From the IMG/VR virus record IMGVR_UViG_3300027708_000294, positions 1 to 24,091 of that record: a stretch of DNA of 24,091 nucleotides, one strand, 5' to 3'. The stretch's first letter is position 1. Each line of letters begins with the position of its first letter. The position numbers and the translations under genes are program-made. Below the pieces are notes generated by a model. That model worked only from the letters and a program-made list of their open reading frames with translations, ran no database searches and was not told the DNA's origin. This stretch comes from a virus. Below, piece after piece: positions 3,959 to 19,967 of this stretch.

Positions 3959-3973
3959 GTTAATTATAACAGG
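3959..3973 (-). promoter_or_regulatory. cassette promoter 1 (variant CCTGTTATAATTAAC)
   Basis: An extended -10 (TG-T-TATAAT) lies 19 bp after the terminase stop and about 30 bp before the zinc-knuckle peptide gene. It is the leftmost good copy of the dispersed promoter and probably reads the 3.9-2.4 kb genes through to the holin terminator. Confidence 0.7.
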
Positions 3974-3991
3974 TAGATCAGGATAATGAAA

Positions 3992-5386
3992 CTACCTAAC
4001 GCGGAAGGTGTTTCTCAGACCAGGGATCTTTCGGCCAGCTGGAGACTTAGCCGTAATCTTTCCGCCTACGAATCCGGCTGGTGGTTTAATGAGTAGAGCG
4101 GTAAGGGCATGGACCAGCGCATCGACGCGGTCAGGTGATTTGCCTTCGCCTGGAATCCACGAGGTCATCTGGGACTCGAGGTCCGCTAGGTACCCTATGT
4201 GGTGCACGCGGTTCTGCTCGTAAGCTAGCGTGATTGGCTCGGCTCGAAGGGCCTTGCCGTATTTGGAGTGAACCTCAAGTACCTTAACCGTTGGGTCAAT
4301 CGTGTTGATGGCGTTGCGAACAAGCGCACCGCCTTGGTTTACCTCCGCGATAACGGGGCAACCCCACTTACGCGCCATGGCTACTACCTTGTTTGCCCAC
4401 ACATCCGGTGAGCCTAAGATTGAAGCATCCTCAAGTACCCAGCTCTGACGTTTGTAAAGATCTCTATCGGCCGTTGCAGCTACAACAACTATGCCGCATT
4501 CATCTCTTGGATTTTCAGCTACCGATGGATCAACACCGATGCAACGAAGCGGTGCGCCTTGTGGCATAACAAGTTCGCGTGTATTATCGATAAGTTCTAC
4601 TGTCCAGAGTGCTCCCTCAACGTCTGAAAGCATCTCGCCGTAAAGTTCCTGCGCAGCTAGACGAGTTCCTTCGTACACTCCAAGAATTCCTTCCATGTAG
4701 GCCGCAGAAAGGTTTCCGCTGTTGTCCATGGTTGAACCTTTAGTAATAATAACCTTGCCGGGATTTGTATCGGCCTCACGTAAAAGATCATATAGCAACG
4801 GCACGCGCTTCGGCGTTGTTGTAATCATAATTTTAGGATTTTGACCAAGACGAGTACCAATACGTAAGTTTTCAAATGCGGTAAGCCCAGCTCCATCTGG
4901 AGTCTGACGCCAAGCGGCAACCTCGTCTCCCCAAGCATGCGTGAATTGAGGACCACGAAGAGAATCTGGCTCATCGGCAGTAAAGCATGTTGCCGTATTG
5001 CCGTTAGGCCAAGTCAGTCTTCGCTTTGACGGTTCGTACAACGGACGCTCACTAGGAGGCGTTACATTGATAATACCTGATTCACCTTCAACGATAACGT
5101 CTCGTACGTCAGCAGCTGTACGAGCTACCAATGCAAAACGGCGTTGACCGGTGTTTGTGTATTTAGCTTCTTCTCTTACCCACTCTGAAGCCGTACGAGT
5201 TTTACCAGCACCGCGTCCTGCGAGGTACATCCATATGTTCCAGTCATCACCTTGAGGACGCTGTTGTTCAGGACGTCCCCAGAAACTCCAGTCCCATTGA
5301 AGAGCGTCTGGATCTAGACCTGCTAGAACCTCTGCCTTTTCTTCATCAGACATTGCCGCAATGATTTGTGCTAGACTCTTTCCCAT
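3992..5386 (-). CDS. terL: phage terminase large subunit
   Basis: This 464-residue protein is the DNA-packaging motor: an N-terminal ATPase that pumps DNA into the prohead and a C-terminal RNase H-like nuclease that cuts the concatemer. Visible motifs are Walker A GRGAGKT (57-63), Walker B with D154/E155 (THAWGDE), the coupling motif ITTTPKR (188-194), and nuclease acidic residues D286 (GVDPS), E348 (AEVNQ) and D419/D422 (SPDRVDAL). Length and motif order match Terminase_6-type proteins. The ribosome site is weak. It is the third gene after the promoter at 6888-6904, behind phosphatase and deacetylase genes, an unusual setting for a terminase. Confidence 0.95.
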   Translation of the reverse strand: MGKSLAQIIAAMSDEEKAEVLAGLDPDALQWDWSFWGRPEQQRPQGDDWNIWMYLAGRGAGKTRTASEWVREEAKYTNTGQRRFALVARTAADVRDVIVEGESGIINVTPPSERPLYEPSKRRLTWPNGNTATCFTADEPDSLRGPQFTHAWGDEVAAWRQTPDGAGLTAFENLRIGTRLGQNPKIMITTTPKRVPLLYDLLREADTNPGKVIITKGSTMDNSGNLSAAYMEGILGVYEGTRLAAQELYGEMLSDVEGALWTVELIDNTRELVMPQGAPLRCIGVDPSVAENPRDECGIVVVAATADRDLYKRQSWVLEDASILGSPDVWANKVVAMARKWGCPVIAEVNQGGALVRNAINTIDPTVKVLEVHSKYGKALRAEPITLAYEQNRVHHIGYLADLESQMTSWIPGEGKSPDRVDALVHALTALLIKPPAGFVGGKITAKSPAGRKIPGLRNTFRVR

Positions 5387-5416
5387 ATGTACTATGGTAC
5401 CTTATAAAAGGAAAAG

Positions 5417-6340
5417 TTATACGGGTACGTTGCTAATATCTGAATATATTTCTGATACTACAGTTGCCCACACCTTTGGTGTGTGGTCGAAAGGTTGATA
5501 ACCACCGGCTCCTCCAATAAGTACTCTGCCTCTTGCATGCTTGTTAGCGATGTCCGCAATGATGCGAGCAGCAGCTCGATACCCAGGATAATCAAAGTTA
5601 AGACCAGACAATGGATCTGAATGATGTGCGTCAGCTCCGGTAGCTAGAAGAATAACATCTGGCTGAATATCATCCGCAAGCAGCTCGATCTCTTGCATCG
5701 CATCCAGAAATTCTACGTCACCATCTCCGTTAGCTAATGCCCAGTTGTATACTCCATTTTCTGGCTCGTTCTTAAGACCAGTTCCCGGGAAGATTCCACC
5801 TTGGTGGATACTTGCCGTAACTAGATTTCGATACGGGCGCAGGATATTCTCAACGCCGTCACCATGATGCGCATCCCAATCAATGTACATAGGCTTAAGC
5901 CCTGCAGCCATAAATAACTTAGCAACTAACGCCATGTCGTTGAATACACAAAAACCAGAGCTATGGTCATACTGCGCATGATGCTTAGCTCCTTGCGGAT
6001 TGAAGGCTACCTGAGCTTCTCCTGAAAGAATCTTTTCATACATGCGAATAGTCCCCGCAGCCATCTCAAGAGCAACGGCTCCAAGATGTAGCTGGTCAGG
6101 ATACCATTCACCGCAGTGACCTTTATCTAAAACCTTAGAAATGTATTCATCAGAGTGAACATGATTTAACAAGTCTCTGTCTGATTCAGACGCTGATGGC
6201 TTAACCATTACTGGTTCTAAGTCTTTAAGAAGCTCTACCGCAAGCTTAGCACGAATTGGATTAGTTGGGTGACTACCGTCACCATTTCCTAGCTGCCAAT
6301 CAAGATAGATATCGTCGTATGCGACGTGTAGCTTACTCAC
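5417..6340 (-). CDS. histone-deacetylase-family (AcuC/HDAC-like) deacetylase
   Basis: A 307-residue zinc-dependent deacetylase fold from the arginase/HDAC superfamily. It has the paired active-site histidines H120-H121 (KHHAQYDHSSGFC), zinc ligands D156 and H158 in YIDWDAHHGDG, the third ligand D237 (GADAHHSDP) and the transition-state tyrosine Y281 (GGAGGY). All catalytic residues are present, so it should be active on acetyl-lysine or an acetylated small molecule; the substrate is unknown. The GTG start at 6340 is chosen because homologous sequence begins there and it overlaps the phosphatase stop by 8 nt. The frame could extend to ATG 6463, but those 41 residues lie inside the phosphatase gene. 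Co-transcribed with the phosphatase and terminase. Confidence 0.9.
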   Translation of the reverse strand: MSKLHVAYDDIYLDWQLGNGDGSHPTNPIRAKLAVELLKDLEPVMVKPSASESDRDLLNHVHSDEYISKVLDKGHCGEWYPDQLHLGAVALEMAAGTIRMYEKILSGEAQVAFNPQGAKHHAQYDHSSGFCVFNDMALVAKLFMAAGLKPMYIDWDAHHGDGVENILRPYRNLVTASIHQGGIFPGTGLKNEPENGVYNWALANGDGDVEFLDAMQEIELLADDIQPDVILLATGADAHHSDPLSGLNFDYPGYRAAARIIADIANKHARGRVLIGGAGGYQPFDHTPKVWATVVSEIYSDISNVPV

Positions 6341-6854
6341 TTGCTTTGTCCAACGTTCGAACATACGCTTCAAACTCACCGTTACATAAAACATATGAGG
6401 TTCGCTTAGTACGAAGAAGCGTGATAGCTTCATCAGGAGTATAACCAGCTTTGATAAGAACAAGAGCCGCAGTTAAACCAGAGCGGTTAAGCCCAGCTTG
6501 ACAACGAATTAAAACCTTCTTACCAGCCTTCCACTTGCTATGCGCAAATGAGACAGCTGTAGCTAGAGACTCTGAGTCAATATGGTCTACGTCTGAATCA
6601 TAAAAACCAAAGCGTAGTTCCTCAACCATCCAGTCAACTGGATTTGCCCATGCGTATAAAGTTACTACCGCATCGAAATCTTTCTTTGTGATTTGTTTAG
6701 GCGCGTCTAATACTGCTGACTCTTCAATTGTGTCCAGGTCATCAGTTCCGCCTACCCATAAACCAGGCAAGATCTCGCTGTGCAATGGAAAGTCCCAGCT
6801 GTCTAACTGATGTGCTGGTGCATATCCTTCGTTTGTTTCAATGAGCTTTGCCAT
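6333..6854 (-). CDS. dual-specificity / tyrosine phosphatase
   Basis: This 173-residue protein carries the cysteine-phosphatase signature CxxxxxR as CQAGLNRSG (C118, R124), with preceding strand KVLIR and a candidate general-acid aspartate in the YDSDVDHID segment (86-93). It has the size and layout of DSP-type phosphatases (DUSP/VH1-like) that dephosphorylate Tyr/Ser/Thr or small phosphorylated substrates. It is the first gene after the promoter at 6888-6904, with ribosome site AAAAGGAG about 7 nt before ATG 6854. Its stop overlaps the deacetylase start. A role in reversing host protein phosphorylation is inferred from this pairing. Confidence 0.88.
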   Translation of the reverse strand: MAKLIETNEGYAPAHQLDSWDFPLHSEILPGLWVGGTDDLDTIEESAVLDAPKQITKKDFDAVVTLYAWANPVDWMVEELRFGFYDSDVDHIDSESLATAVSFAHSKWKAGKKVLIRCQAGLNRSGLTAALVLIKAGYTPDEAITLLRTKRTSYVLCNGEFEAYVRTLDKASE

Positions 6855-6887
6855 TGTGTTTCTCCTTTTGTCATTTTGTCATTTAAT

Positions 6888-6904
6888 GGTACTATTATAT
6901 CAGG
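6888..6904 (-). promoter_or_regulatory. cassette promoter 2 (CCTGATATAATAGTACC)
   Basis: Exact extended -10 core. It precedes the phosphatase-deacetylase-terminase operon and follows the Ntn hydrolase stop by about 20 bp. Confidence 0.8.
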
Positions 6905-6924
6905 ATAAGTTACCTGCTAGTAAC

Positions 6925-7491
6925 TTACTCTTCTTGTATAAACGTGTGGATGTTGCCACCGGAGTAGATGTCATGCTTGATAGCAATTTCTACTGCACGG
7001 TAAACAATCTTCTCAGCTTCCTTTGCGGTCTTACACTTTTGATAGTTAAGAGCTTCAAGAACACCGAGAGCTAGATCCGAACCACTACCTGAGTGATACA
7101 CGTTTCGTTCTTCTCTGTCCCAAGAGTAGTCTTCGTAAATCGGATACAGAACTCCGTACACTGAGACAATGAACTCTGAGTCGTGAGCCGCAGCTTCACC
7201 GTCAGCCTTCATGTCGTAGCCAGACTCGACGAAAACCTTACGCATAGACGGAATAAATGTTTTCGTCATGAATACATCAAGGTCCTGTCCAGCTTTCGGA
7301 CGAGGAGCTCTCCAACCAAATTGAAGTATGTTTGAGCCGCGTCCCGCACCAGACCCTGCAATTAAAATACCGTTATTCTCTACGACTTTATGCGTAGCCA
7401 TTTCTAGGTAGCGACCACTTTCGTCAGACGAACGCGAATCACAACCAATGACGGACCAGCCGTCACCTTGAATTGCTACAAGTGTAGTCAC
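6925..7491 (-). CDS. proteasome-beta/HslV-like Ntn hydrolase
   Basis: This 188-residue protein starts with an N-terminal nucleophile: after Met removal Thr2 (MTTLVAI) would be the catalytic threonine. D18 in GCDSRSS matches Asp17 of proteasome beta subunits, K35 (MATHKVV) the active-site lysine, and SGSGSDLALGVLEAL with DIYSGG resembles the GSGG...AL and IYTGG segments of HslV/proteasome subunits. It is probably a self-compartmentalising peptidase subunit. No dedicated HslU-type unfoldase is adjacent, so its partner is unknown; the MoxR ATPase at 16.2-17.2 kb is one candidate by inference only. The start is GTG 7491 with AGAGGA 6 nt upstream. A structured leader (7509-7554) separates it from the preceding gene. 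Confidence 0.85.
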   Translation of the reverse strand: MTTLVAIQGDGWSVIGCDSRSSDESGRYLEMATHKVVENNGILIAGSGAGRGSNILQFGWRAPRPKAGQDLDVFMTKTFIPSMRKVFVESGYDMKADGEAAAHDSEFIVSVYGVLYPIYEDYSWDREERNVYHSGSGSDLALGVLEALNYQKCKTAKEAEKIVYRAVEIAIKHDIYSGGNIHTFIQEE

Positions 7492-7508
7492 GGAATTCCT
7501 CTCCAGGT

Positions 7509-7554
7509 AAAACGCCTATCCAGGCGCTAGGAAAACTGTATCCTAAGCGCCTGG
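7509..7554 (-). promoter_or_regulatory. possible attenuator before the Ntn hydrolase gene
   Basis: On the minus strand a long stem pairs 7546-7554 and 7541-7544 with 7520-7528 and 7529-7532 (CCAGGCGCT plus AGGA arms, one bulge). A second stem (CGCCT, GGAT loop, AGGCG; 7513-7526) followed by TTTT (7509-7512) uses part of the same bases, so the two cannot form together. This resembles an antiterminator/terminator switch. The ribosome site of the Ntn hydrolase gene follows directly. Confidence 0.45.
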
Positions 7555-7562
7555 ACTACGTC

Positions 7563-7898
7563 TTACTTTACGAGATCAATTATAGCCACAGGAACAACAA
7601 TATCTGCTGATTCTGATTTACCCGTAATTGGGTTAATTTTTTCGAATCTTCCAACGGGTGTCTCCAGTCTTACAACAACCTTCTTCTGTTTCATCCCTGT
7701 CACAGTTGCCTTGCGGCCAACCATGTAGCGAGTCCCAGTTAGATCATTGAAGACCACCGTGTCACCGATGTGATAATCCGCAATTGTGCGTGAGACACGA
7801 GACGCCTTTAGGCGTGAATCTACCGCATCCTTGATTTTGACTAAGCCAGAATCAAATGTTCCTGACTCAATCTGAGATACAAGATCTTCGATATTCAT
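7563..7898 (-). CDS. small protein with SH3/KOW-like barrel
   Basis: This 111-residue protein has a helical N terminus (residues 1-38) and a beta-rich C-terminal part (IGDTVVFNDLTG, then GRKATVTGMKQKKVVVRL) that looks like a small SH3/KOW-type barrel. Proteins of this look are common in phages and uncharacterised. It is the first gene after cassette promoter 3, with ribosome leader GCGACGGAAGGA before ATG 7898, and shares a transcript with the Ntn hydrolase unless the intervening leader terminates. Confidence 0.6.
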   Translation of the reverse strand: MNIEDLVSQIESGTFDSGLVKIKDAVDSRLKASRVSRTIADYHIGDTVVFNDLTGTRYMVGRKATVTGMKQKKVVVRLETPVGRFEKINPITGKSESADIVVPVAIIDLVK

Positions 7899-7920
7899 GT
7901 TATTCCTTCCGTCGCAGTTA

Positions 7921-7938
7921 TAGTACTATTATATCAGG
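7921..7938 (-). promoter_or_regulatory. cassette promoter 3 (CCTGATATAATAGTACTA)
   Basis: Exact core, with TTGTAC as a -35 element 18 bp upstream of TATAAT. That -35 lies inside the 3' end of the 7944-8156 gene. Confidence 0.85.
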
Positions 7939-7943
7939 TTTTG

Positions 7944-8156
7944 TCAGGAAAGTACAATAGCTGCTTGGTCAGGGCAATACCCAAATAACTGAGCAGACAT
8001 CTGCATACTGGTCTTACCTGTATCAGTCCAGTCCTTGTAGACTCTCTTCCACTCGTTGGAAGAAGCCTTAGGATGATAAATTAAGCACTGGCAAGGAGAC
8101 GTAGATAGTTCTTCCACAGCCCTTGTCTGCTCAGCTAATTGGTTAATCCAAGTCAT
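7944..8156 (-). CDS. hypothetical protein
   Basis: A 70-residue protein with a CQCLIYH segment near residue 22 and a later GYCPDQ. Too few residues for a confident zinc site. Its ATG overlaps the TAA of the previous gene by one base (TAATG), so it is coupled to it. Not recognised. Confidence 0.6.
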   Translation of the reverse strand: MTWINQLAEQTRAVEELSTSPCQCLIYHPKASSNEWKRVYKDWTDTGKTSMQMSAQLFGYCPDQAAIVLS

Positions 8157-8398
8157 TATGCATCAACCTCTGCACGGAAATAACCGATACCTTGCTCAGC
8201 TTGAGCTAGATCTTCTACCCAAGGTAGACGTTTACGCTCAGTGTCTAAGAAAGAACTAGCGTAGAGGACTGCCTCTTTTTTGGCAGGTCCAAGAGATTTG
8301 AAAGCTCCACGGCGTGTTTCACCACTTGCAAGGTCCTTGACCTCAACTAGCCATGCAGCGTTAGGGGCTTTGCTTTTATGTAAGGTTGCTACTATCAT
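8156..8398 (-). CDS. hypothetical protein
   Basis: An 80-residue, mostly alpha/beta small protein (MIVATLHKSKAPNAAWLVEVK...) without recognised motifs. ATG 8398 has GAAAGGA about 5 nt upstream. It is the middle gene of the unit 8487-8729, 8156-8398, 7944-8156. Confidence 0.62.
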   Translation of the reverse strand: MIVATLHKSKAPNAAWLVEVKDLASGETRRGAFKSLGPAKKEAVLYASSFLDTERKRLPWVEDLAQAEQGIGYFRAEVDA

Positions 8399-8449
8399 GA
8401 TGTCCTTTCGACATTGTTAGGTGGGTAGTTTAGTGACTTGCCCAGGTCG

Positions 8450-8479
8450 TTCTGTAGCGGATTGGAGTACGTTACAGAA
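8450..8479 (-). other. intergenic hairpin
   Basis: TTCTGTAGC (8450-8458) pairs with GTTACAGAA (8471-8479), 9 bp including one G-U, 12-nt loop. No T-tract follows on the minus strand, so it may be an mRNA processing or stability element rather than a terminator. Confidence 0.3.
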
Positions 8480-8486
8480 GTTTAAT

Positions 8487-8729
8487 TTATACGGCGTAAG
8501 CTAATTCGTAACCTTTGTTTAGTTTTTCTTGAACCTTCATGAATGCCATTTGACGTGCATAGAACTCGTCACGATAGTTCTTTATCTCATTCTGGCGGAC
8601 TGGCTTTTCTGCCATTCCCCAGCTAGTGCGAACTACTGGACCATCTACAGTTACCTCGTAGATCTTACGCTTTCCGTTTGCTCCACGTTGACCATCGCTG
8701 GATTTTAGGAGACACCATTTCTTTTGCAT
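8487..8729 (-). CDS. WGR-like domain protein
   Basis: The 80-residue protein resembles a stand-alone WGR domain: KRKIYEVTVDGPVVRTSWG (about 20-38), a middle region ending in a helix, and KVQEKLNKGYELAY at the C terminus, matching the KL..GY end of WGR domains. The name motif is changed from WGR to SWGM. WGR domains are found in PARPs and bacterial regulators and bind nucleic acid or partner proteins. It follows cassette promoter 4 and the conserved leader AACGACGGAAGGA. Confidence 0.6.
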   Translation of the reverse strand: MQKKWCLLKSSDGQRGANGKRKIYEVTVDGPVVRTSWGMAEKPVRQNEIKNYRDEFYARQMAFMKVQEKLNKGYELAYAV

Positions 8730-8773
8730 TTTGGATCCTTCCGTCGTTTTGTCGTTTTCACCGTTTCCGATGA

Positions 8774-8791
8774 TAGTACTATTATATCAGG
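8774..8791 (-). promoter_or_regulatory. cassette promoter 4 (CCTGATATAATAGTACTA)
   Basis: Exact core, with GTATAC 18 bp upstream as a -35-like element. Reads the WGR-like gene and two downstream genes. Confidence 0.85.
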
Positions 8792-8811
8792 AAGATCTAG
8801 GGAAGTATACC

Positions 8812-9084
8812 TTACTCGTCGGTAACATCTTCATCCGGCCACATCTCCGGGCGAAGGGCGTGTTCATATTGGTCACCGCGCCAGGAATTGGATGCGAACG
8901 AGATGTCTTCCTCCATGAGCTTATTTAATGAGAGGACTGCGGTATGACCCTCAGCCTCGAACATGATGATGAGCTTTGTGTCTGACTGTTCAGGGTCATC
9001 TACAAGCGCCACGGTGAAAGGCATCCCACCAATGCCATTTCGGTGAGTGTCCATATCTACGATTTCTAGCTTATCAGCATTCAT
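8812..9084 (-). CDS. hypothetical acidic protein
   Basis: This 90-residue acidic protein begins MNADKLEIVDMDTHRNGIGG and has a beta-rich centre. Its ATG overlaps the stop of the upstream gene (ATGA), and AGAGGAACCG precedes the start. It is the last gene of the operon that starts at cassette promoter 5. Family not recognised. Confidence 0.6.
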   Translation of the reverse strand: MNADKLEIVDMDTHRNGIGGMPFTVALVDDPEQSDTKLIIMFEAEGHTAVLSLNKLMEEDISFASNSWRGDQYEHALRPEMWPDEDVTDE

Positions 9085-10245: not shown

Positions 10246-10258
10246 GTTAATTATATCT
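10246..10258 (-). promoter_or_regulatory. cassette promoter 5 (variant AAGATATAATTAAC)
   Basis: Has the TATAAT and TTAAC parts but AAGA instead of CCTGA, with CTGTAC 18 bp upstream. The TAA stop of the upstream gene (10251-10253) is part of its -10. Confidence 0.7.
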
Positions 10259-10563: not shown

Positions 10564-10581
10564 TAGTACTATTATAACATG
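10564..10581 (-). promoter_or_regulatory. cassette promoter 6 (variant CATGTTATAATAGTACTA)
   Basis: TATAATAGTACTA is exact; the extended element is CATGT. GTGTAC lies 18 bp upstream as a -35-like element. Confidence 0.8.
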
Positions 10582-11095: not shown

Positions 11096-11110
11096 GTTAA
11101 TTATATCAGG
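11096..11110 (-). promoter_or_regulatory. cassette promoter 7 (CCTGATATAATTAAC)
   Basis: Exact core; CTTGAA 18 bp upstream is a possible -35. Reads 10835-11074 and 10583-10798. Confidence 0.82.
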
Positions 11111-11336: not shown

Positions 11337-11351
11337 GTTAATTATATCAGG
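11337..11351 (-). promoter_or_regulatory. cassette promoter 8 (CCTGATATAATTAAC)
   Basis: Exact core with TTTTAC about 19 bp upstream; it directly follows the terminator of the orphan RNA unit. Confidence 0.82.
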
Positions 11352-11376
11352 TTTTCTTCCATAAAGTAAAATAAGA

Positions 11377-11413
11377 GTGGGACCAGCCCATGTCGAATGA
11401 AAACTGGTCCCAC
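11377..11413 (-). terminator. strong terminator of the orphan RNA unit
   Basis: GTGGGACCAG (11377-11386) and CTGGTCCCAC (11404-11413) pair perfectly over 10 bp. On the minus strand the stem is followed by TCTTATTTTACTTT. Confidence 0.75.
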
Positions 11414-11646
11414 AACTACTGGACAGGCGTCTCTCCCTCAACTCTTTGGGCCGACCTCAAAAGCTTTAGCCTAACTAAGCACCTTGCTTTACTCTTGGTA
11501 GAGTCTCTACGAATAACACTAAGCAATGCAGAGGTCTTATGACATACAGTTGCTACCCTTTCCGCACCTTACTAGCTTATTGGGAGTACTCCACCATGTG
11601 GAACCCGTACGCCTTCAGGCTTGGTTAGTCCAATCCTTTTATTTAG
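11377..11646 (-). ncRNA. orphan structured non-coding RNA candidate, about 270 nt
   Basis: A 355-bp stretch (11313-11667) has no credible ORF on either strand, yet starts with a cassette promoter (11652-11667) and ends with a strong terminator (11377-11413). The minus-strand transcript can fold: GCATTGCTT (11521-11529) pairs with AAGCAAGGTGC (11479-11489) with a 2-nt bulge and encloses the hairpin GTAGA-GAC-TCTAC (11498-11510). TCCAC-ATG-GTGGA and GCC-TGAA-GGC form hairpins near the 5' end. An AAAGGA site near the 5' end leads to no long frame. It does not look like tRNA, tmRNA, RNase P or 6S RNA by eye. A regulatory or structural RNA is likely; the class is unknown. A short peptide cannot be excluded. 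Confidence 0.55.
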
Positions 11647-11651
11647 TTATA

Positions 11652-11667
11652 GTTGAATTATATCAGG
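11652..11667 (-). promoter_or_regulatory. cassette promoter 9 (CCTGATATAATTCAAC)
   Basis: Exact CCTGATATAAT core, adjacent to the TAA stop of 11668-11847. No gene follows; it appears to drive the orphan RNA. Confidence 0.8.
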
Positions 11668-12440: not shown

Positions 12441-12457
12441 GGTTTAATTATATCAGG
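12441..12457 (-). promoter_or_regulatory. cassette promoter 10 (CCTGATATAATTAAACC)
   Basis: Exact core, CTGTAC 18 bp upstream. Reads 12219-12416, DUF3846-like and 11668-11847. Confidence 0.82.
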
Positions 12458-12798: not shown

Positions 12799-12816
12799 TA
12801 GTACTATTATAACATG
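12799..12816 (-). promoter_or_regulatory. cassette promoter 11 (variant CATGTTATAATAGTACTA)
   Basis: Identical to promoter 6 over all 18 bp, with TTGTAC 18 bp upstream. An additional TATAATAG lies between the two elements. Confidence 0.82.
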
Positions 12817-13222: not shown

Positions 13223-13281
13223 GCAACCAGCGGAAGAAAGTCTGGTAGACTCTCGCCTACAGTTTCATATCCGCTGGCTGC
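13223..13281 (-). promoter_or_regulatory. structured 5' leader of the 13197 operon
   Basis: GCAACCAGCGGA (13223-13234) pairs with TCCGCTGGCTGC (13270-13281), a 12-bp stem with one G-U pair, and an inner stem pairs 13242-13248 with 13257-13262 with one bulge. It starts a few bases after the predicted transcription start and leaves the ribosome site free. It could stabilise the mRNA or bind a regulator. Confidence 0.5.
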
Positions 13282-13284
13282 GCG

Positions 13285-13302
13285 TAGTACTATTATATCA
13301 GG
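13285..13302 (-). promoter_or_regulatory. cassette promoter 12 (CCTGATATAATAGTACTA)
   Basis: Exact 18-bp copy. Its TGA (13298-13300) is also the stop codon of the subtilase gene. Confidence 0.85.
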
Positions 13303-14246: not shown

Positions 14247-14294
14247 GGTTAAAAATAACCGATGCAGGTAGAGTAATCTGACGGAAGGTCTACC
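14247..14294 (-). terminator. possible terminator/attenuator between VWA and subtilase genes
   Basis: On the minus strand GGTAGA...TCTACC (14289-14294 with 14267-14272) is followed by a smaller hairpin GGTTA-TTTT-TAACC (14247-14260). They could reduce read-through into the subtilase gene, which has no cassette promoter of its own. Confidence 0.3.
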
Positions 14295-14308
14295 CACACC
14301 GGAGCTTG

Positions 14309-16105
14309 TTACGCAGCATTACGTGCGCCAATCTTTGTTAGAGCGTCTGCCGCAGCTTTTCCGATTTGGAGTGCAGCGTCTGCTGGGTCTTTCACATCTT
14401 GTAATAGGGCAACTGATGTTCCCTTAACTATGCTACGGACATATTCTAGTTGATATTCTTGTGTGAAAGGAAGCCACATGATTGCGACCCCTGACTTCTC
14501 ACATTCGCGAACCCACTTCTTAGCATTCTCTATCTCATCTGGTGTATAGCAACCATCGCTAACAACCACGAGTAGACGAGCGCCAGTTCCATTGAGAAGA
14601 TTTAGAGAACCATCGAGTGCCTTGAACGCCTTATCGAACTTTTCAGTTGCATCAGGAGCTGTATAGACATTTACCTCAGGAAGATGCTGCCCTGGCTTTA
14701 GAGTAGGGAATACACCTGAACCATAGTAGACCATTGCGCAACGTCCTTGAACGCGTCGCACTGCCTCGGACATTGCCCAGGCGGTAACTGCCATTGGCTG
14801 CATTGCGTCTGCCATTGAACCAGAGATGTCAACCATAACTCCAACGTTAAGTGTTGGGTCATCAGTATGCTTACGCACTGTACGCTTCCATGGCTCTGCA
14901 TGCATCATTGAACCACGAGCTTTGTACGCAGCTTCTTGAACCATCGCACGAGAACGTAGACGCCCTGGAGGAAGAATCGAAGTTACTTCCTTTTCATCGC
15001 GCTCACGATACTTTGCACGCTCAAGCATGTTTGCGATTTTCACCGCAGCCGCACGCTCTGGACCAGATGGTGCACGAGTCTCCTTGATGCGTGAGTAGCT
15101 ACCAGAGCTTCCTAGCTCAGCAGTAGACTTGTTGAAGACTTCATCTGAAATCTTTTCATGATCTCTTTGTTGTTTTGCGGCCTTGCCACGAAGATCAACA
15201 ACGTCATTCCAGTCTTCCTTCTGCTCTTGTTCCTGGGCTTCGTCGCCAATTGCAATTGCAATATCTTCCGCTGCTTCTTCAAGGGCTTCAATAATCTCTG
15301 CGATGATACCTGCCATAGCAGCAGTGACAGGATTGTCTTCCTCTTCATCACTGTTCTCTTTAGAAACTTCAGAGATAAGCTTTTCCCATTCGCGGGCAAG
15401 TTCGTAAAGTGGCAGAGCGTTTGTGTGCCCTTCATACTTTTGGAATCGAAGCCAGATGTCACGAAGTTGTGAATAGCGAGTATCACCAAAGTACTCAGCG
15501 ACAAGCTCTTGAACGTCTAGAGCATCTTCGTTATCTAGTGAACCTGCATCAACACGAGCACATACGAGAGCAGCTAACTGCGCCATAGCACGAGTAGTGG
15601 TGCTCTTCTCTAGATATTCACGAACGTCATCAAGGATGATGTCCATCGCGCACGCGCGAAGGAACACTCGGTTAGCTGGGAAGTTTTCTATACCGAAAGC
15701 TTCAATGCGAGTCTCCTCAAGAATAGTAAGTGCCTGAAGTTCATTCTTTGAAAGATCCTCGTGGGCTTTGAATAAATCGTAGCGAGAGTAACGAGCGTGT
15801 AGTGCCTCATGAAAGATCGCACCGGATGCTCGTGGATAATCGAATTGTGTTCCGCGCTCGCGGACGTCTCCTATATTCTCAGGAGTTACTGTTGGACCGA
15901 AGGCAACAGAGACGTTTACCTCGACCTCAGCCATTGGTGGGTTGAAGCAGGCTGGTGCAGATTGCCCAGCGCCTGGGCCAACGTAGGCAACGATGTCTGA
16001 GCGTCCTGCCCAGGTGTTGACTAGCTCGCCGAGTTGAGCTCCGACCTTTAGCCATTCCGGCGGAGTCTGTTCCGCGCGGGTTTTAGAAACCTTTATATGT
16101 GCCAT
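14309..16105 (-). CDS. HExxH metallopeptidase-like / VWA domain protein (CobT-like)
   Basis: This 598-residue protein has three parts. The N-terminal part carries HEALH (99-103), a zinc-metallopeptidase motif, followed by LEETRIE (129-135), a possible third ligand. A long acidic, helical middle (about 245-300) follows. The C-terminal VWA domain has an intact MIDAS: DISGSM (426-431), T507 (NGTGA) and D517 (VSDG). Such proteins partner with MoxR/CobS-type AAA+ ATPases, and one is encoded immediately upstream (16202-17194). The pair resembles phage CobS/CobT-like genes, although no cobalamin pathway is visible. It has its own cassette promoter and leader GACGGAAGGA. Confidence 0.85.
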   Translation of the reverse strand: MAHIKVSKTRAEQTPPEWLKVGAQLGELVNTWAGRSDIVAYVGPGAGQSAPACFNPPMAEVEVNVSVAFGPTVTPENIGDVRERGTQFDYPRASGAIFHEALHARYSRYDLFKAHEDLSKNELQALTILEETRIEAFGIENFPANRVFLRACAMDIILDDVREYLEKSTTTRAMAQLAALVCARVDAGSLDNEDALDVQELVAEYFGDTRYSQLRDIWLRFQKYEGHTNALPLYELAREWEKLISEVSKENSDEEEDNPVTAAMAGIIAEIIEALEEAAEDIAIAIGDEAQEQEQKEDWNDVVDLRGKAAKQQRDHEKISDEVFNKSTAELGSSGSYSRIKETRAPSGPERAAAVKIANMLERAKYRERDEKEVTSILPPGRLRSRAMVQEAAYKARGSMMHAEPWKRTVRKHTDDPTLNVGVMVDISGSMADAMQPMAVTAWAMSEAVRRVQGRCAMVYYGSGVFPTLKPGQHLPEVNVYTAPDATEKFDKAFKALDGSLNLLNGTGARLLVVVSDGCYTPDEIENAKKWVRECEKSGVAIMWLPFTQEYQLEYVRSIVKGTSVALLQDVKDPADAALQIGKAAADALTKIGARNAA

Positions 16106-16127
16106 GATTTTCCTTCCGTCATTTTGT

Positions 16128-16145
16128 TAGTACTATTATATCAGG
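16128..16145 (-). promoter_or_regulatory. cassette promoter 13 (CCTGATATAATAGTACTA)
   Basis: Exact 18-bp copy, directly after the terminator of the MoxR gene; drives the VWA gene and probably the subtilase. Confidence 0.85.
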
Positions 16146-16186
16146 TAAAGAAGGTCCCAGGCACCCATACCCAGGACCTTCCTTTA
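16146..16186 (-). terminator. terminator of the MoxR operon
   Basis: TAAAGAAGGTCC (16146-16157) and GGACCTTCCTTTA (16174-16186) form a 12-bp stem with one bulged C. On the minus strand the descending arm ends TTCTTTA and abuts the next promoter. Confidence 0.6.
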
Positions 16187-16201
16187 CTGCGCCAAGGGGA
16201 A

Positions 16202-17194
16202 TTAAATCTTGGCTGGTCGGCACTCTTCGCCGTACACCCTAGTGAGCACGTCCGCAACGACGGGGCGGTCGAGCTCAGGCGCACAGGCAATCAGGTTCGC
16301 GATAGCGAACTTAGTGCCGAACGATTTTGAGATGTCGCGGAATGCGAGCAACTCACGCATTTGTGGACACCAACCACATTCACCAGATGCCTGGCGACGA
16401 TTGATGTTTTGTGCAACTGTAACGATCTGTGCAGAGGCGCCAAGCTTTTTAGCAAGACCCCAGTCTGTAGTCATCTCAGATTGCACAACGAATCGAGATA
16501 GAAGAGCTTCGGATAAGCGAACTCCAGGAGCGTTTGGGTTAGTAGCAGCGATGACATAGAACCCATCTTTTGCTTTTACAGTTCCACGCTCTGGGTTTGC
16601 AGTAATTGTTAGTTCCTTACGTCCATCCATAAGTCCGTAGACTCCTGAAAGAACCTTAGGATCAATCAAGCCAACTTCGTCGATGAGCAATGGCACACCT
16701 TCTTCGGCAGCTTTTACAAGCGGACCGTCTTCCCACATGAATCCACCGGTTGGAGTTTGTACGTATCCACCAATGAAGTCAGCGAGTTCAGTGTCACCTG
16801 TACCCATGATTGTGTATAGCTTTTCATAGGCAGCTTCAACGAGTGCGGTTTTGCCGCAACCTGGAGCTCCGTAGAGAAGAATAAACTGTTGATCCATACG
16901 CGCCTTGCGAAGAACCATGACGTCATCATGCTCTCCCCACTTACGTGCATGGTACTGCTCGCCATTTGGACGAGTGTAGACTGAATCGCCTACGAGTGCA
17001 TCTGCTGATACCACAGGGACTACCTTTGCTTTGGGTGTTGGTCGTGCGTTTACTTTACCCTGAGCGAGAACTAGTGAGTCGAGAGTTGCAGAAGACTCTG
17101 GGTGAGTTGTCTGCATAAGTGATGTAAGAAGTGTAGAGCCTAGGTTAGCTCCGGGTGCGAATGTTTCAATCGCGTCCATAATTGCTGTAGACAT
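16202..17194 (-). CDS. MoxR-family AAA+ ATPase
   Basis: This 330-residue protein has an N-terminal extension of about 95 residues and an AAA+ domain: Walker A GAPGCGKT (109-116), Walker B LLIDE (169-173), sensor 1 ATNPN (217-221) and an arginine finger R234 (LLSRF). The GGYVQTPTGGFMWEDGPLVK segment before Walker B is typical of MoxR/CobS chaperone ATPases. It probably remodels a substrate together with the VWA protein encoded next. C-terminal CGWC (about 274-277) may bind metal. Leader AACGACGAAAGGA precedes ATG 17194; it is co-transcribed with 17227-17685. Confidence 0.9.
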   Translation of the reverse strand: MSTAIMDAIETFAPGANLGSTLLTSLMQTTHPESSATLDSLVLAQGKVNARPTPKAKVVPVVSADALVGDSVYTRPNGEQYHARKWGEHDDVMVLRKARMDQQFILLYGAPGCGKTALVEAAYEKLYTIMGTGDTELADFIGGYVQTPTGGFMWEDGPLVKAAEEGVPLLIDEVGLIDPKVLSGVYGLMDGRKELTITANPERGTVKAKDGFYVIAATNPNAPGVRLSEALLSRFVVQSEMTTDWGLAKKLGASAQIVTVAQNINRRQASGECGWCPQMRELLAFRDISKSFGTKFAIANLIACAPELDRPVVADVLTRVYGEECRPAKI

Positions 17195-17226
17195 TTGTGT
17201 ATCCTTTCGTCGTTTGGGTGGGTGGG

Positions 17227-17685
17227 TTACTCTACGATTAACTCGCCGAACCCAAGGGTGCGTCGAACTCTCGTAATGCGACCTAAAATTTTGTAAGGAG
17301 TCTTTGAGAGTCTAATAGACTCTAGATCTTCCTGGGCAACTTCTACAATGATGGGGCTCTTGTATAGTCTATAACTGTATGAGTTAAGTTGAGACAGCGT
17401 AGTCGCCATATAGTTTAAGCGCAACTCTGCTCCTTGGACCGCATCATCGTTTGACTGAGTCTCGTAGGCTCCGAACGAGTTGATGGGTAGTGCCGGTAGA
17501 CTGTAGGTCTTCCATGCACGGCGTGGCTTTTGCTTTGAGATTTGGCGGCGGTACAATGTTGAAGGTACTGCGCGACCATTTGAGGAGATGCCATCTGGGG
17601 TAAGAAGCATCTGATAGGTTTGATTGGTTGGAGTGCGAAGCTCTAAGTAGAGAGCTTTTCCAATCACCTTATCCTTGTCTGCCAT
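17227..17685 (-). CDS. hypothetical protein upstream of moxR
   Basis: A 152-residue basic protein (MADKDKVIGKALYLELRTPT...) that is probably mostly beta, with no recognised motif. It is the first gene after cassette promoter 14, with leader AACGACGAAAGGA, and lies 32 bp upstream of the MoxR ATPase gene with no promoter between. Co-expression suggests a partner or substrate adaptor of the MoxR-VWA pair, but this is only positional evidence. Confidence 0.65.
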   Translation of the reverse strand: MADKDKVIGKALYLELRTPTNQTYQMLLTPDGISSNGRAVPSTLYRRQISKQKPRRAWKTYSLPALPINSFGAYETQSNDDAVQGAELRLNYMATTLSQLNSYSYRLYKSPIIVEVAQEDLESIRLSKTPYKILGRITRVRRTLGFGELIVE

Positions 17686-17715
17686 TTTCTGTCCTTTCGT
17701 CGTTTTGGGTGGTTA

Positions 17716-17733
17716 TAGTACTATTATATCAGG
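17716..17733 (-). promoter_or_regulatory. cassette promoter 14 (CCTGATATAATAGTACTA)
   Basis: Exact 18-bp copy; TTGTTC 18 bp upstream is a good -35. Reads 17227-17685 and the MoxR gene. Confidence 0.85.
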
Positions 17734-17739
17734 TAGATG

Positions 17740-17970
17740 TTAAACTGAACAATCGCAATTGCCACAACTACAGTGAGGCTCGCCAGGTTTGGCTTCGCAC
17801 ACGTCACAACCTTCATGGAGAGGGTAGAGATAGTTTCCAAGGTCGATGCCCATTCCAGTGCGGATGATTACCTCATCGCCATCAAGCAAGACAGTAGAAC
17901 CAGTGAGGCGTTCCTCGATATACTCGCGAAGATGTTCTAATGTTTGTATGTCTGAAAGTTGTATTTTCAT
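17740..17970 (-). CDS. cysteine-rich small protein
   Basis: A 76-residue protein with a helical N-terminal half and a cysteine-rich end: CDVC (55-58) and CSCGNCDC (67-74), six Cys in 20 residues, suggesting a metal cluster or zinc site. Start 17970 is preferred over 17988, because the upstream ATG is simply a variant of the ribosome leader (ATGACGGAAGGA) seen elsewhere as AACGACGGAAGGA. Function unknown. Confidence 0.65.
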   Translation of the reverse strand: MKIQLSDIQTLEHLREYIEERLTGSTVLLDGDEVIIRTGMGIDLGNYLYPLHEGCDVCEAKPGEPHCSCGNCDCSV

Positions 17971-18000
17971 TTTATTTCCTTCCGTCATTTATTGTTATAA

Positions 18001-18015
18001 GTTAATTATATCAGG
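18001..18015 (-). promoter_or_regulatory. cassette promoter 15 (CCTGATATAATTAAC)
   Basis: Exact core; its TGA (18011-18013) is the stop codon of the ADP-ribosyltransferase-like gene. Confidence 0.82.
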
Positions 18016-18412
18016 TTGACTCCACTGTAGAGGAATAAAGCTCTGCAAATAGCTCGCGAACATAAACCTTTGGGAGCTCAAGCGCCGCACGAGGAATTTC
18101 CTTTGAGATATACACCCAGCTCGTTGCGTTATTAAAGAATGCCGCACTGTGGTCGGTACCTGGTTCCCAGAGTCCTACGTCAGTCTTAGAGGTCTTGATT
18201 TCCCAGACATGAATCGAATCATGCGCCTCAACGCCGAAAGATTCAGGAGTCCTGTGGACATGGTCAAGCAGGCGGAACCACATAAACTGAAGAGCGTCGC
18301 CTGGAGTCTCGGCCGCATAGATCTCACCAAAAGCAGACTTGAGCCCGTCAGCGTTAATGCTACCTAGTGCGCACTCGGGCGCTGCATGATAGAGCTTCTT
18401 TGGAACTGTCAT
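18011..18412 (-). CDS. ADP-ribosyltransferase-like fold protein
   Basis: The 133-residue protein begins with LYHAAPECALGSINADGL (about 7-24), then IYAAETPGDALQFM (31-44) and later WVYISKEIPRAALE (99-112). This order, a His in the first strand, a GL-type loop, and Tyr plus ET..DA, resembles the H-Y type ADP-ribosyltransferase/KptA fold. The final Glu is not assigned with certainty. T4-type phages use such enzymes to modify host RNA polymerase; a similar role here is inferred. The start at 18412 is chosen because the ATG at 18430 is part of the ribosome leader. A long hairpin leader and cassette promoter 16 precede it. Confidence 0.5.
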   Translation of the reverse strand: MTVPKKLYHAAPECALGSINADGLKSAFGEIYAAETPGDALQFMWFRLLDHVHRTPESFGVEAHDSIHVWEIKTSKTDVGLWEPGTDHSAAFFNNATSWVYISKEIPRAALELPKVYVRELFAELYSSTVEST

Positions 18413-18440
18413 TGCGCATCCTTCCGTCATTAAAATTAGT

Positions 18441-18520
18441 AACGATGAAGGCGCCGTATTGTTTCGGACCCCTGCAGGTTTCGAGTCTTTAGTTTGGCCA
18501 GCGGCCGCCCCTTCATCGTT
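18441..18520 (-). promoter_or_regulatory. structured 5' leader of the ADP-ribosyltransferase-like gene
   Basis: AACGATGAAGG (18441-18451) and CCTTCATCGTT (18510-18520) make a perfect 11-bp stem enclosing 58 nt that holds further G+C-rich pairings (a GCGGCCGC palindrome at 18501-18508, CCTGCAGG at 18471-18478). It starts about 5 nt after the promoter and leaves the ribosome site unpaired. Candidate mRNA-stabilising or regulatory element. Confidence 0.5.
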
Positions 18521-18524
18521 ATGA

Positions 18525-18539
18525 GTTAATTATATCAGG
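18525..18539 (-). promoter_or_regulatory. cassette promoter 16 (CCTGATATAATTAAC)
   Basis: Exact core, with TTTTAC 18 bp upstream. It follows a terminator by 26 bp. Confidence 0.84.
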
Positions 18540-18565
18540 TACATAATTAAAAGTAAAATAGGAAA

Positions 18566-18587
18566 CCCCTGGCTGTTAGGCCAGGGG
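18566..18587 (-). terminator. terminator of the 18600-18944 unit
   Basis: CCCCTGGC (18566-18573) and GCCAGGGG (18580-18587) form an 8-bp stem; the minus-strand tail is TTTCCTATTTTACTTTT. Confidence 0.78.
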
Positions 18588-18599
18588 CTTCGTTAACTC

Positions 18600-18944
18600 T
18601 TAGAGAGTTTTAATGAATGTGTAGGGTGTCTTTACCAGGGTTGCCTCAAAGGCTTCTGGGAAAAGTTCCTGTAGGACCTTGCGGTCGATTTTGGAATTGG
18701 TTGAGTGTGCAAGCTTGAATCGCTCTACCCCACCAATGACTGCGGTATCCGCGTCACCTAAAAGTTCGCGTAGCAGTAACTCTGCTTCAGCTTTCTTTTC
18801 TTCGTACGCCTTAATCGCATCCTTTGCGAATGTGAATGCTGCCAATGCTTTTTCGGCTGCTGCAGCTTTTGATGTTAGGTCTACCTTGTTGGTAACCTTT
18901 GTTACTGTAGAGACTTTAGTCTCTGTGATTACGGTGCTAACCAT
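18600..18944 (-). CDS. hypothetical phage protein with coiled N-terminal part
   Basis: The 114-residue protein starts with a Thr/Val/Lys-rich stretch, then an Ala/Glu/Lys-rich helix (about 24-62) that could be a coiled coil, and ends with GVERFKLAHSTNSKIDRKVL and a short strand. Small proteins like this often lie next to phage nucleases, but none is adjacent here. Single-gene unit between cassette promoter 17 and a strong terminator. Family not recognised. Confidence 0.6.
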   Translation of the reverse strand: MVSTVITETKVSTVTKVTNKVDLTSKAAAAEKALAAFTFAKDAIKAYEEKKAEAELLLRELLGDADTAVIGGVERFKLAHSTNSKIDRKVLQELFPEAFEATLVKTPYTFIKTL

Positions 18945-18995
18945 GTGGTTACTTCCCTTTCGTCATTTTGTCGTTGGCGCCAGGTTTCCGGCGTT

Positions 18996-19012
18996 GGCAC
19001 TATTATATCAGG
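18996..19012 (-). promoter_or_regulatory. cassette promoter 17 (CCTGATATAATAGTGCC)
   Basis: Exact CCTGATATAAT core, TGTTAC 18 bp upstream. Confidence 0.82.
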
Positions 19013-19014
19013 TT

Positions 19015-19239
19015 CTACTCTGTAAGTAACACACCACCGGCGCATGAATCGCAAACAATCCAGGAGTCGTTCTCAGCCTCAACGATGACACAGGAGACAA
19101 AGCGGCTGTTCACGAAGCCAATGGCTACGTCACAGTTCTCGCAGGCGAGGTCGTCTGCGTCAAAGTCCATGAGATCAAGAGACTCGGCTCTGTGAGCCTG
19201 GTCAGTATTCTCAACTACATATAAGTGTACGTTCACCAT
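19015..19239 (-). CDS. small zinc-binding protein
   Basis: A 74-residue protein with CENC (about 33-36) and CDSC (about 63-66) plus a Cys between them; the two CxxC pairs suit a zinc ribbon. The ATG lies in a 7-bp hairpin (19231-19248) and lacks a Shine-Dalgarno sequence, so translation is probably weak, coupled or regulated. It shares the transcript of the winged-helix gene. Function unknown. Confidence 0.6.
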   Translation of the reverse strand: MVNVHLYVVENTDQAHRAESLDLMDFDADDLACENCDVAIGFVNSRFVSCVIVEAENDSWIVCDSCAGGVLLTE

Positions 19240-19248
19240 GGGGTGAAC
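19231..19248 (-). promoter_or_regulatory. hairpin over a start codon
   Basis: GTTCACC (19231-19237) and GGTGAAC (19242-19248) pair perfectly around a 4-nt loop; the ATG of the 19239 gene (19237-19239) sits at the loop. It may act as a translational switch or as a protein-binding operator palindrome. Confidence 0.45.
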
Positions 19249-19260
19249 AATAAACGGATA

Positions 19261-19920
19261 TTAGAGAGCTGACTTAAAAAGCTCCTGAAGTTTGTCGAGC
19301 TTGGCGTTGGCCGCATCCAGCTGTGACTGGATCTCGGCGGTACGCTCCGCAACCATCTTCTCGATGAGGTAATCGACTACCGCATTTGAGTTCGTTGGCA
19401 CCGGTGTCACGTCGACAAGCTCGACCTCAGTAAACCGACGCTTAGATTTAGACGCAGCCTTTGTTGAGTACTTATATACCCTACGAGCTATGACTCCTGT
19501 TTGAGAGTAAAGTCTCAGCCCTGGTACTGCTTCAGCAACCGTACGAGCTGGAACCACGCCCGCAGGAGCCCAGTAGAGAGTAGCAAGAATATTAGGAGCT
19601 CGCCCGCCATCAGCGCGAACACCTTGTTCGTGCTTAGTCTCTTTTCGAGATGAGACTAGGTTTCCGGAGATGAGAGCCTTAACTTCGGTGCGAACCTGCA
19701 TTTCGCCATATGGTCGATTTGCAATGCGCGATGCCGCCTCTGCGATTTCAATAATACTTAAAGGCTGCGATGATTCAGTTAACGCCTGCAGGATTGATTT
19801 ACGGGCGCTGCTTAATACGGGAGTGTATGTATTGATGGGAGTGTCCTTTTTGTCGTTTGAATTTAGTGAATTTAGATTTACAGGAGTTGTAAATCTAGCC
19901 AGGTGTTTTAACTGTGGCAT
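19261..19920 (-). CDS. winged-helix DNA-binding protein with coiled-coil tail
   Basis: This 219-residue protein has a winged-HTH-like domain at about residues 35-95 (SARKSILQALTESSQPLSII, then a recognition helix QVRTEVKALISGNLVSS and a basic wing). A beta-rich middle follows, and a C-terminal heptad-like helix (about 188-219, IQSQLDAANAKLDKLQELF) could dimerise it. It is the first accessory gene after the right-end module, under cassette promoter 18, with leader ATGACGAAAGGA. It is a reasonable candidate for a regulator of the cassette promoters; this is inference. Confidence 0.7.
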   Translation of the reverse strand: MPQLKHLARFTTPVNLNSLNSNDKKDTPINTYTPVLSSARKSILQALTESSQPLSIIEIAEAASRIANRPYGEMQVRTEVKALISGNLVSSRKETKHEQGVRADGGRAPNILATLYWAPAGVVPARTVAEAVPGLRLYSQTGVIARRVYKYSTKAASKSKRRFTEVELVDVTPVPTNSNAVVDYLIEKMVAERTAEIQSQLDAANAKLDKLQELFKSAL

Positions 19921-19952
19921 CTAATAATTCCTTTCGTCATTTTTTCCTACAA

Positions 19953-19967
19953 CTTAATTATATCAAG
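19953..19967 (-). promoter_or_regulatory. cassette promoter 18 (variant CTTGATATAATTAAG)
   Basis: One mismatch in the CCTGA part of the core; the rightmost clear copy of the dispersed promoter. Confidence 0.75.

Follow-up and report, generated by a model that had tools for sequence, protein, structure and literature searches.

Introduction

Several conserved early promoters are located in one region of the actinophage phiC31. The system closest to the locus studied herein appears to be the start-associated sequence (SAS) and extended start-associated sequence (ESAS) of the cluster K mycobacteriophages, in layout but not in sequence. In the accessible text of the two reports, 11-19 near-identical repeats stand, nearly all in one orientation, directly before the starts of non-structural genes, and the ESAS contain putative SigA-like promoters with a repeat consensus that differs between subclusters (PMC3203893, PMC11373665). 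The same accessible text describes the ESAS as fewer (7 in Adephagia), with -35 and -10 hexamers 17-18 bp apart and an imperfect inverted repeat. Cluster A stoperators, in the parts of their description available, are also many repeats across an actinophage genome; they are repressor sites that stop transcription. Extended -10 promoters carry TGnTATAAT with a dispensable -35, according to the available portions of the literature (PMC2613000, PMC3890552).

Herein, an array of about 18 near-identical promoter copies is described in a stretch of viral DNA of 24,091 nucleotides (IMG/VR virus record IMGVR_UViG_3300027708_000294, positions 1 to 24,091; called the window). The form in the window, A-C-C-TGn-TATAAT, is named dialect D1, and two other forms in relatives are named D2 and D3. 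The copies are unrelated in sequence to SAS and ESAS, most have no -35, and there is no conserved inverted repeat. The repeated stretch before the start codons is GACGRAAGGA, a Shine-Dalgarno (SD) sequence, with the ATG usually 20-60 nt after TATAAT; the 13-bp SAS GGGATAGGAGCCC, which lies at most a few bp from the start codon, was not seen there, although no separate search for the 13-mer was made. The ESAS pattern of -35, -10 and a 15-17-bp inverted repeat was not found either, as the sites with CC before TGn have no strongly conserved upstream positions. In contrast to stoperators, the repeats stand at the promoter position before SD and starts. Extended -10 promoters elsewhere differ from this locus in that here the copies are gathered in one block, a fixed CC (or CTAAAG in D2) stands beside TGn, and the SD is repeated. 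As for T4-like middle promoters, no distant activator box is present in D1 CC sites, and the D2 CTAAAG lies one base before TGn. No earlier description of the array was found among open-access titles and the beginnings of abstracts.

Promoter copies in the window

The core CCTGATATAAT is present in 13 exact copies in the window, all 13 on the minus strand, compared with 0.01 expected from 100 dinucleotide shuffles (largest 1). When up to two mismatches were allowed, 23 matches were found versus 5.37 expected. The first-pass annotation of this DNA had claimed about 18 minus-strand copies, and this was borne out by 13 exact and five near copies. A minus-strand TATAAT is present at 18 of 18 listed places, with low coordinates 3963, 6894, 7928, 8781, 10250, 10571, 11100, 11341 and 11657 in the first half and 12447, 12806, 13292, 16135, 17723, 18005, 18529, 19002 and 19957 in the second. 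The copies thus exist, but the positions given earlier were 4-7 nt lower than these coordinates because downstream letters had been included. The five inexact copies read CCTGT (3963), CATGT (10571 and 12806), CTTGA (19957) and AAGA without TG (10250). The TGnTATAAT core is found in 17 of the 18 copies, where TGn directly precedes a near-TATAAT hexamer as in an extended -10 promoter. Two extra minus-strand TATAAT (12822 and 7579) have no TG in front. At the six sites for which TTGTAC had been named, this hexamer or a 4-5/6 match ends exactly 18 nt before TATAAT in all six. The end modules had been said to lack exact copies, and indeed all exact copies fall between 6.89 and 19.01 kb. When 3800-20200 was scanned with a generic TTGACA/TATAAT model, no excess was seen (19 found, 20.7 expected), the outcome to be anticipated if most copies are without a -35.

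The window matches positions 71,211-95,301 of the 129,506-bp contig IMGVR_UViG_3300027741_000002 (G031) with 100% identity. In this parent genome the array is restricted to 75.2-91.2 kb, and a whole-genome count gave four further TGnTATAAT elsewhere. A matrix trained on the sites of other records, which has no sensitivity for the CTTGA and AAGA copies, found 16 sites above 24 bits in the 129.5-kb genome, all within the block. Three other matches scored 12.5-17.1 bits, including one at 22601-22611 of the window (plus strand), and no match in the base-shuffled genome exceeded 12 bits.

Related phages

Relatives were collected as 59 IMG/VR contigs from two pattern scans; 50 were counted whole and nine small ones were omitted. 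Two of the 50, G031 and G025, represent the phage of the window itself, the set includes many near copies, seven records were analysed without their last 0.2-7.2 kb, and the GC content is 0.34-0.60. One record (G027, 34% GC) has the 18-mer of the motif but none of three tested proteins, and is probably a chance match. Across the 50 contigs, the majority strand carries 529 copies and the opposite strand 9, with 0 for the reversed pattern. The motif search of the full genome and relatives that the first-pass annotation had proposed gave both block confinement and a strand bias. Five long records contain 72 exact copies, of which 69 fall within a single block covering 8-16% of the record, and 62 of the 72 are outside genes as predicted by our own simple caller; a motif equally frequent in coding regions had been named as the counter-evidence.

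Loci chosen by their terminase give a fairer sample, because the 50 records were selected by the motif. The best 80 of 136 terminase loci were used; a first tally on 54 hand-picked loci was redone on all 80. Upstream TGnTATAAT was counted 286 times on the terminase strand versus 2 on the opposite strand, with at least one in 54 of 80 loci. The 39 loci with at least 5 kb upstream were assigned as 28 D1, 2 D2 and 9 neither; of these nine, two have the D3 form and one a single D1 copy. Among named phages, 37 INPHARED records match the D1 cassette weakly, with E of at least 0.02 among the matches listed and none convincing. The 45-kb stretches of the cultured relatives GodonK and Pumpernickel have no TGnTATAAT.

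The window comes from a lake virus whose host is probably an actinobacterium. Three WhiB matches are present in each of six long genomes and none in five shorter records. WhiB serves as an actinophage marker in the accessible part of PMC6802176. The terminase is closest to that of Actinomycetia phage DSL-LC01 (76.6%), followed by Microbacterium and Gordonia phages, and these two observations together suggest actinophages. DSL-LC01 itself was assembled from a metagenome with a predicted host, as stated in the available text of PMC10611076. Host assignment by the motif was rejected: the 18-mer has 4 matches in genome_contigs versus 7.5 calculated for chance in 257 Gb, in an archaeal metagenome-assembled genome (MAG), a cyanobacterial MAG and two gut-type MAGs.

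All six long genomes have a TGnTATAAT beyond the block, about 1.05 kb upstream of a WhiB match (G031:21151, G014:85522, G046:100448, G001:7719, G004:19351 and DSL-LC01:99667), and it is of CC type in five of the six. Divergent cassette pairs less than 80 bp apart were observed at one block end in three records (G001:79141/79199, G041:15807/15845 and G050:14819/14892).

Sequence features of the promoters

Sites were sorted by the two bases preceding TGn, which gave 465 unique CC, 80 CATG and 43 TATG sites. Together they make up almost 590 distinct extended -10 sites, many of them from closely related phages, and provide a measurable trade-off between the bases before TGn and the -35 in uncultured phages. 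The comparison points to two real classes: CC-TGn, mostly without a -35 (class I), and C/TATGn with a GTTTACTTT-like -35 (class II). TTGACA (at least 4/6) was found upstream of 17.0% of the 465 CC sites versus 16.1% of shuffled ones, so that the -35 is weak or absent. TTGTAC (at least 4/6) was found at 66% of CATG sites versus 20% shuffled and at 74% of TATG sites versus 22% shuffled. The GTTTACTTT-like element of the CATG and TATG sites has a 17-nt spacer if read as TTTACT. TTGTAC is not a general feature of the cassette; it belongs mainly to the CATG/TATG class, and the TTGTAC in the window reads as the -35 of this second class, also present in some CC sites.

The 418 unique CCTGA sites were examined by position. 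Upstream of the A at -18, the information content stays at or below 0.35 bit throughout. The bases preferred after TATAAT are A/T, G/A, T/A, A, C, C/T and A, and the last, 7 nt 3' of TATAAT, is A in 78% of the sites and is the predicted start. Some SD and start were found within 220 nt at 495 of 524 CCTGA sites, with a strong SD in 402 and 407 at a distance of 20-59 nt. A terminator before every unit was not supported: upstream hairpins showed a modest excess, with 24% versus 11% having z < -2 (200 sampled sites, 194 controls), and a generic terminator scan gave no excess (15 found, 14.9 expected).

The class is partly bound to the gene, since orthologue pairs are alike in 0.79 of cases versus 0.68 expected. 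Several genes are 100% class I (33/33, 31/31 and 29/29), and others are mixed (17:23 and 15:17). The split between AGTACTA and TTAAC after TATAAT is less gene-bound, and both types are adjacent in many genomes in differing proportions. It had been proposed that these may mean two regulators or two timings; orthologues of 30-69% identity share the type in 59-66% versus 49-52% expected, which does not bear this out. Sharing in closer relatives is 71-100% versus 60-71% expected, and one gene is of AG type in 20 of 20.

These features account for most of what had been regarded as conservation beyond the need of sigma-70. TGA is the TGn element and AGTACTA/TTAAC would be the discriminator plus A+1, so neither requires a special regulator, and only A-C-C before TGn is unexplained. 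The trade-off between A-C-C and the -35 suggests a polymerase contact and not a separate operator. The earlier picture of one promoter type on one strand, in one block, before most units thus stands, while the special regulator does not follow as it was argued.

Promoter dialects

DSL-LC01 has its block between the endolysin and the terminase, as in the window, but with CTAAAG[A/T]TGTTATA[A/G]T. The D2 form in relatives is generally CTAAAG[A/T]TGnTATAAT. DSL-LC01 contains 25 CTAAAGnTG copies at 22.6-43.3 kb and 3 elsewhere. D2 was followed in nine other contigs with several copies, among the matches listed, and in six further records the copies are confined to spans of 4-20 kb. The 106 unique D2 sites have no majority base above 56% upstream of -14, which indicates that D2 is likewise without a -35. 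In INPHARED, 76 records match D2, and among the matches listed only DSL-LC01 is below E 1 (12 places).

The D2 copies occupy corresponding positions. In DSL-LC01 a D2 promoter precedes the homologues of the 80-aa and 114-aa genes of the window and also the positional counterparts of the 152-aa gene and of the 598-aa gene; for the 598-aa gene it reads CTAAAGACGTTATAAT and lacks the TG. Of the three TGnTATAAT that DSL-LC01 has outside the block, the two preceding the WhiB operon and a thymidylate kinase gene are ACCTGTTATAAT; its block contains no CC-type site. Among the six further D2 records, a CC-type site outside the block is present in G051 only (ACCTGGTATAGT). D2 therefore looks like a property of the block, because one polymerase must read both forms in DSL-LC01. 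D3, which combines TTGAC with TGnTAnn(C/T)T, occurs at 4 sites in locus L386 and 5 in locus L392, within 8-10 kb, and has no site on the other strand. The third member of the D3 group, L397, has no D3 site in 3.5 kb.

A terminase tree was built from 60 rows of 99 hits, with identical rows taken once, plus an outgroup with a long branch; some rows scored as having no dialect have little DNA. Placed among the D1 rows are three D2 rows, grouped with support 91, and the D3 rows, grouped with support 100; the fork joining D2 and D3 with five D1 rows has a support of only 80. Such a block-wide change of signal between relatives offers a rare opportunity to see how a regulon might be rewritten.

A 200-aa protein with a sigma-70 region 4-like helix-turn-helix is encoded at 9242-9844 (minus strand) in the window; it is present in D1 and D3 relatives and not in DSL-LC01. 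As a reader of D1 it was rejected, because its distribution does not follow the dialect.

Candidate explanations

The array is real, conserved and block-wide, and most of its sequence is accounted for by the requirements of a strong extended -10 promoter. It is likely that the copies are -35-independent promoters read by the host sigma-A polymerase, about one per unit. The block would then be made of short, separately started transcription units, each from a near-consensus extended -10 with A+1 some 7 nt downstream. The host RNA polymerase, carrying the housekeeping sigma-A, would read the copies via TGn and TATAAT at DNA entry with no phage protein. CC may be an extra polymerase contact that makes the -35 dispensable, as it trades off with the -35, which is often present where CC is missing. 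WRWAYYA after TATAAT would be the discriminator and start site, not an operator. One possible use is that such promoters keep working if a phage protein disables sigma region 4. Use of sigma-A, strength, timing and the role of CC are here predicted from sequence features. Canonical consensus TRTGn does not include CC, and this weighs against a plain sigma-A promoter. So does the extended -10 review, in whose accessible text promoters without a -35 match and without an activator site are not clearly known, which speaks for a helper. Further points on the same side are TTGTAC (at least 5/6) in 10.1% of CC sites versus 2.2% shuffled, by which "no -35" is not absolute; the selection of the 50 records via the motif itself, the terminase-chosen sample alone being motif-blind; and some relatives that bear another motif across the whole block. 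A single host polymerase preference does not predict that D2 replaced D1 block-wide while DSL-LC01 kept two ACCTGTTATAAT outside. The D3 sites of L386 and L392, which stand on one strand only, are on the supporting side. A phage sigma regulon was not supported: sigma region 2 (PF04542), whose profile matches 11 of 14 controls, was not detected at E 1 in any of the 10 records searched, which are mostly fragments. According to the accessible text of PMC3890552, sigma-A promoters of C. glutamicum have weak -35s, explained by TGnTATAAT, and a perfected TGnTATAAT removes the need for a -35 in the available extended -10 literature (PMC2613000, PMC3890552).

A phage factor that reads the CC or CTAAAG bases, such as a sigma-appropriating protein, a WhiB-type partner of sigma region 4 or a DNA-binding activator, is rather unlikely. 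The block would be one regulon, and a change of specificity would have replaced its copies. D2 arrays do occupy D1 positions, including those before the 80-aa and 114-aa homologues and the positional 152-aa and 598-aa genes. The CC-free block of DSL-LC01 beside its ACCTGTTATAAT sites outside, the conserved site upstream of WhiB, the genes that are always class I, and the activator usually needed by promoters without a -35 (in the accessible text of the same review) would also fit. A different motif across the whole block still favours a trans-acting reader, and the contrast between D2 inside and CC forms outside is the best argument for a block-specific factor, though none was found. No candidate tracks the dialect: WhiB matches occur in every one of the six long genomes, whichever the dialect, the sigma-region-4-like protein of D1 and D3 relatives was not found in the D1 records G018 and G005 (fragments) or in DSL-LC01, and the mixed genes switch class freely. 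A fuller version can be put forward only tentatively. It takes the block as the regulon of a phage specificity factor acting beside the extended -10, where a change of factor rewrote 15-25 promoters (CC to CTAAAG, or to TTGAC plus TGnTAnnCT), the old form was kept elsewhere, and several units are structured RNAs. Promoter dialects among relatives would be the outcome. Spread of the cassettes by within-genome copying, through gene conversion or modular insertion of promoter plus SD with new genes, would make the uniformity a matter of descent. The similarity runs from CC to the SD while the upstream DNA mostly differs, and the RNA elements C and D described below recur before different genes. 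The stretch between +1 and SD varies, however, and the same core stands at homologous positions in records of 46% and 59% GC, which suggests selection and leaves copying very improbable. Repressor operators of stoperator type, bound by an immunity repressor, are scarcely credible. ATAGTACTAT is palindromic in the window, and DSL-LC01 has GATTC..GAATC arms around the -10; the AGTACT palindrome as a general operator was ruled out because TAAC, TAAA, TATC and others replace AGTACTA in many copies. The arms are not shared by the other D2 arrays examined, and a search of viral_contigs with the 26-mer pattern gave no match.

Transcription units of the window

All copies and genes in this section are on the minus strand. 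The lowest copy, CCTGTTATAAT (3963..3973), has a predicted +1 near 3956 and is followed by an SD and ATG, a 28-aa open reading frame and a 94-aa gene (3561-3845). CCTGATATAAT+AGTACCA (6894..6904) stands before a dual-specificity phosphatase-like gene (6333-6854), a histone deacetylase-like gene (5417-6463) and the terminase (3992-5386), and its gene cluster has CCTGA and the AG type in 20 of 20. The histone-deacetylase-domain and phosphatase-like proteins adjoin each other (5417-6854) just upstream of the terminase, and this pair has no tblastn match in DSL-LC01. CCTGATATAAT+AGTACTA (7928..7938), with TTGTAC 18 nt upstream, precedes a 111-aa gene (7563-7898) and then a proteasome-subunit-like gene (6925-7491; PF00227, 5.3e-9), whose DSL-LC01 homologue is annotated HslV. 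The next CCTGATATAAT+AGTACTA (8781..8791) precedes the 80-aa gene (8487-8729), with DSL-LC01 homologues under a D2 promoter.

The variant TATAAT after AAGA, without TG (10250..10255), has CTGTAC 18 nt upstream and precedes a 54-aa gene (10057-10221). The class II core CATGTTATAAT+AGTACTA is found twice: at 10571..10581 with GTGTAC upstream, before a 96-aa gene (10251-10541), and at 12806..12816 with TTGTAC upstream, before an HTH_38-like 97-aa gene (12483-12776). CCTGATATAAT is continued by TAACCCA (11100..11110) before a 79-aa gene (10835-11074), by TAACCTT (11341..11351) before a 65-aa gene (11115-11312), and by TAAACCA (12447..12457), with CTGTAC upstream, before another 65-aa gene (12219-12416). 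The copy CCTGATATAAT+TCAACTA (11657..11667) has no SD and start within 220 nt and would drive candidate RNA A.

CCTGATATAAT+AGTACTA at 13292..13302 is followed by the structured leader D. The same form at 16135..16145 precedes the 598-aa gene (14309-16105) and a subtilase (13298-14215), class I in 33/33 of the gene cluster, and at 17723..17733 the 152-aa gene (17227-17685) and an AAA ATPase (16202-17194), class I in 31/31. CCTGATATAAT+TAACTTA (18005..18015) precedes a 76-aa gene (17740-17970), and CCTGATATAAT+TAACTCA (18529..18539) the structured leader C and a 133-aa gene. CCTGATATAAT+AGTGCCA (19002..19012) precedes the 114-aa gene (18600-18944), with a DSL-LC01 homologue under a D2 promoter, and the variant core CTTGATATAAT (19957..19967) a 219-aa gene (19261-19920).

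Putative RNA elements

The cassettes predict transcript starts and thereby expose candidate RNAs missed by gene callers. In Rfam the window gave no match at gathering score, and six stretches of relatives gave tRNAs only. Candidate noncoding RNA A of about 280 nt (11375..11650, minus strand) follows the copy at 11657 and ends in a terminator of its own, a strong hairpin and then T-rich DNA. It is 90-91% identical over 283 nt in G050 (21156-21433) and G048 (10415-10692), and has no Rfam match up to E 1. A 36-nt core is also present in G024, G012 and G007.

Leader element C (18441..18520, minus strand), after the copy at 18529, has the closing stem AACGATGAAGG/CCTTCATCGTT. It is represented by 24 unique sequences (75 hits including overlapping loci), with TGnTATAAT within about 70 nt upstream of every hit. 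All 26 sequences inspected form an outer stem of 8 or more pairs; its 5' strand occurs in 14 distinct versions, some different only at an end. In the control with 24 sequences, at least 8 pairs were reached in 6% of shuffled arms and 33% of arms swapped among sequences. RNAalifold on a MAFFT alignment missed the outer stem because stem lengths differ, and the stems were then read per sequence. A viral_contigs scan for the core gave 18 stretches; of seven loci examined, four lie in cassette arrays and three are unrelated without TGnTATAAT. Rfam gave nothing at gathering score and five weak matches far below family scores. Element C is riboswitch-like in that the outer stem is variable yet paired, the core TGGYCA..GAAACAAT is conserved, and it stands before different genes. 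Its loop often contains a self-complementary stretch of 6-8 nt (CTGCAG, CTCTAGAG, GCATGC).

Leader element D (13224..13280, minus strand), after the copy at 13292, has the form CAGCCAGCGGA..ATGAAAC..CCAGACTTTCTTCCGCTGGTTG. Nine unique sequences were found, and 41 of 41 hits have TGnTATAAT within about 70 nt upstream. ATGAAAC and CCAGACTTTCTTCC are conserved inside the paired stem, before different genes.

RNA B is represented by 28 unique sequences, with TGnTATAAT close upstream in 50 of 98 hits. In 15 of 27 sequences with a terminase in the record, that gene starts 130-154 nt after the B start. RNA B with a terminator is located just upstream of the terminase, for example at G011:6345, G046:21573 and G042:19342. 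The terminase after RNA B starts just past TGTACTATAGTACAC without an SD, possibly as a leaderless late start.

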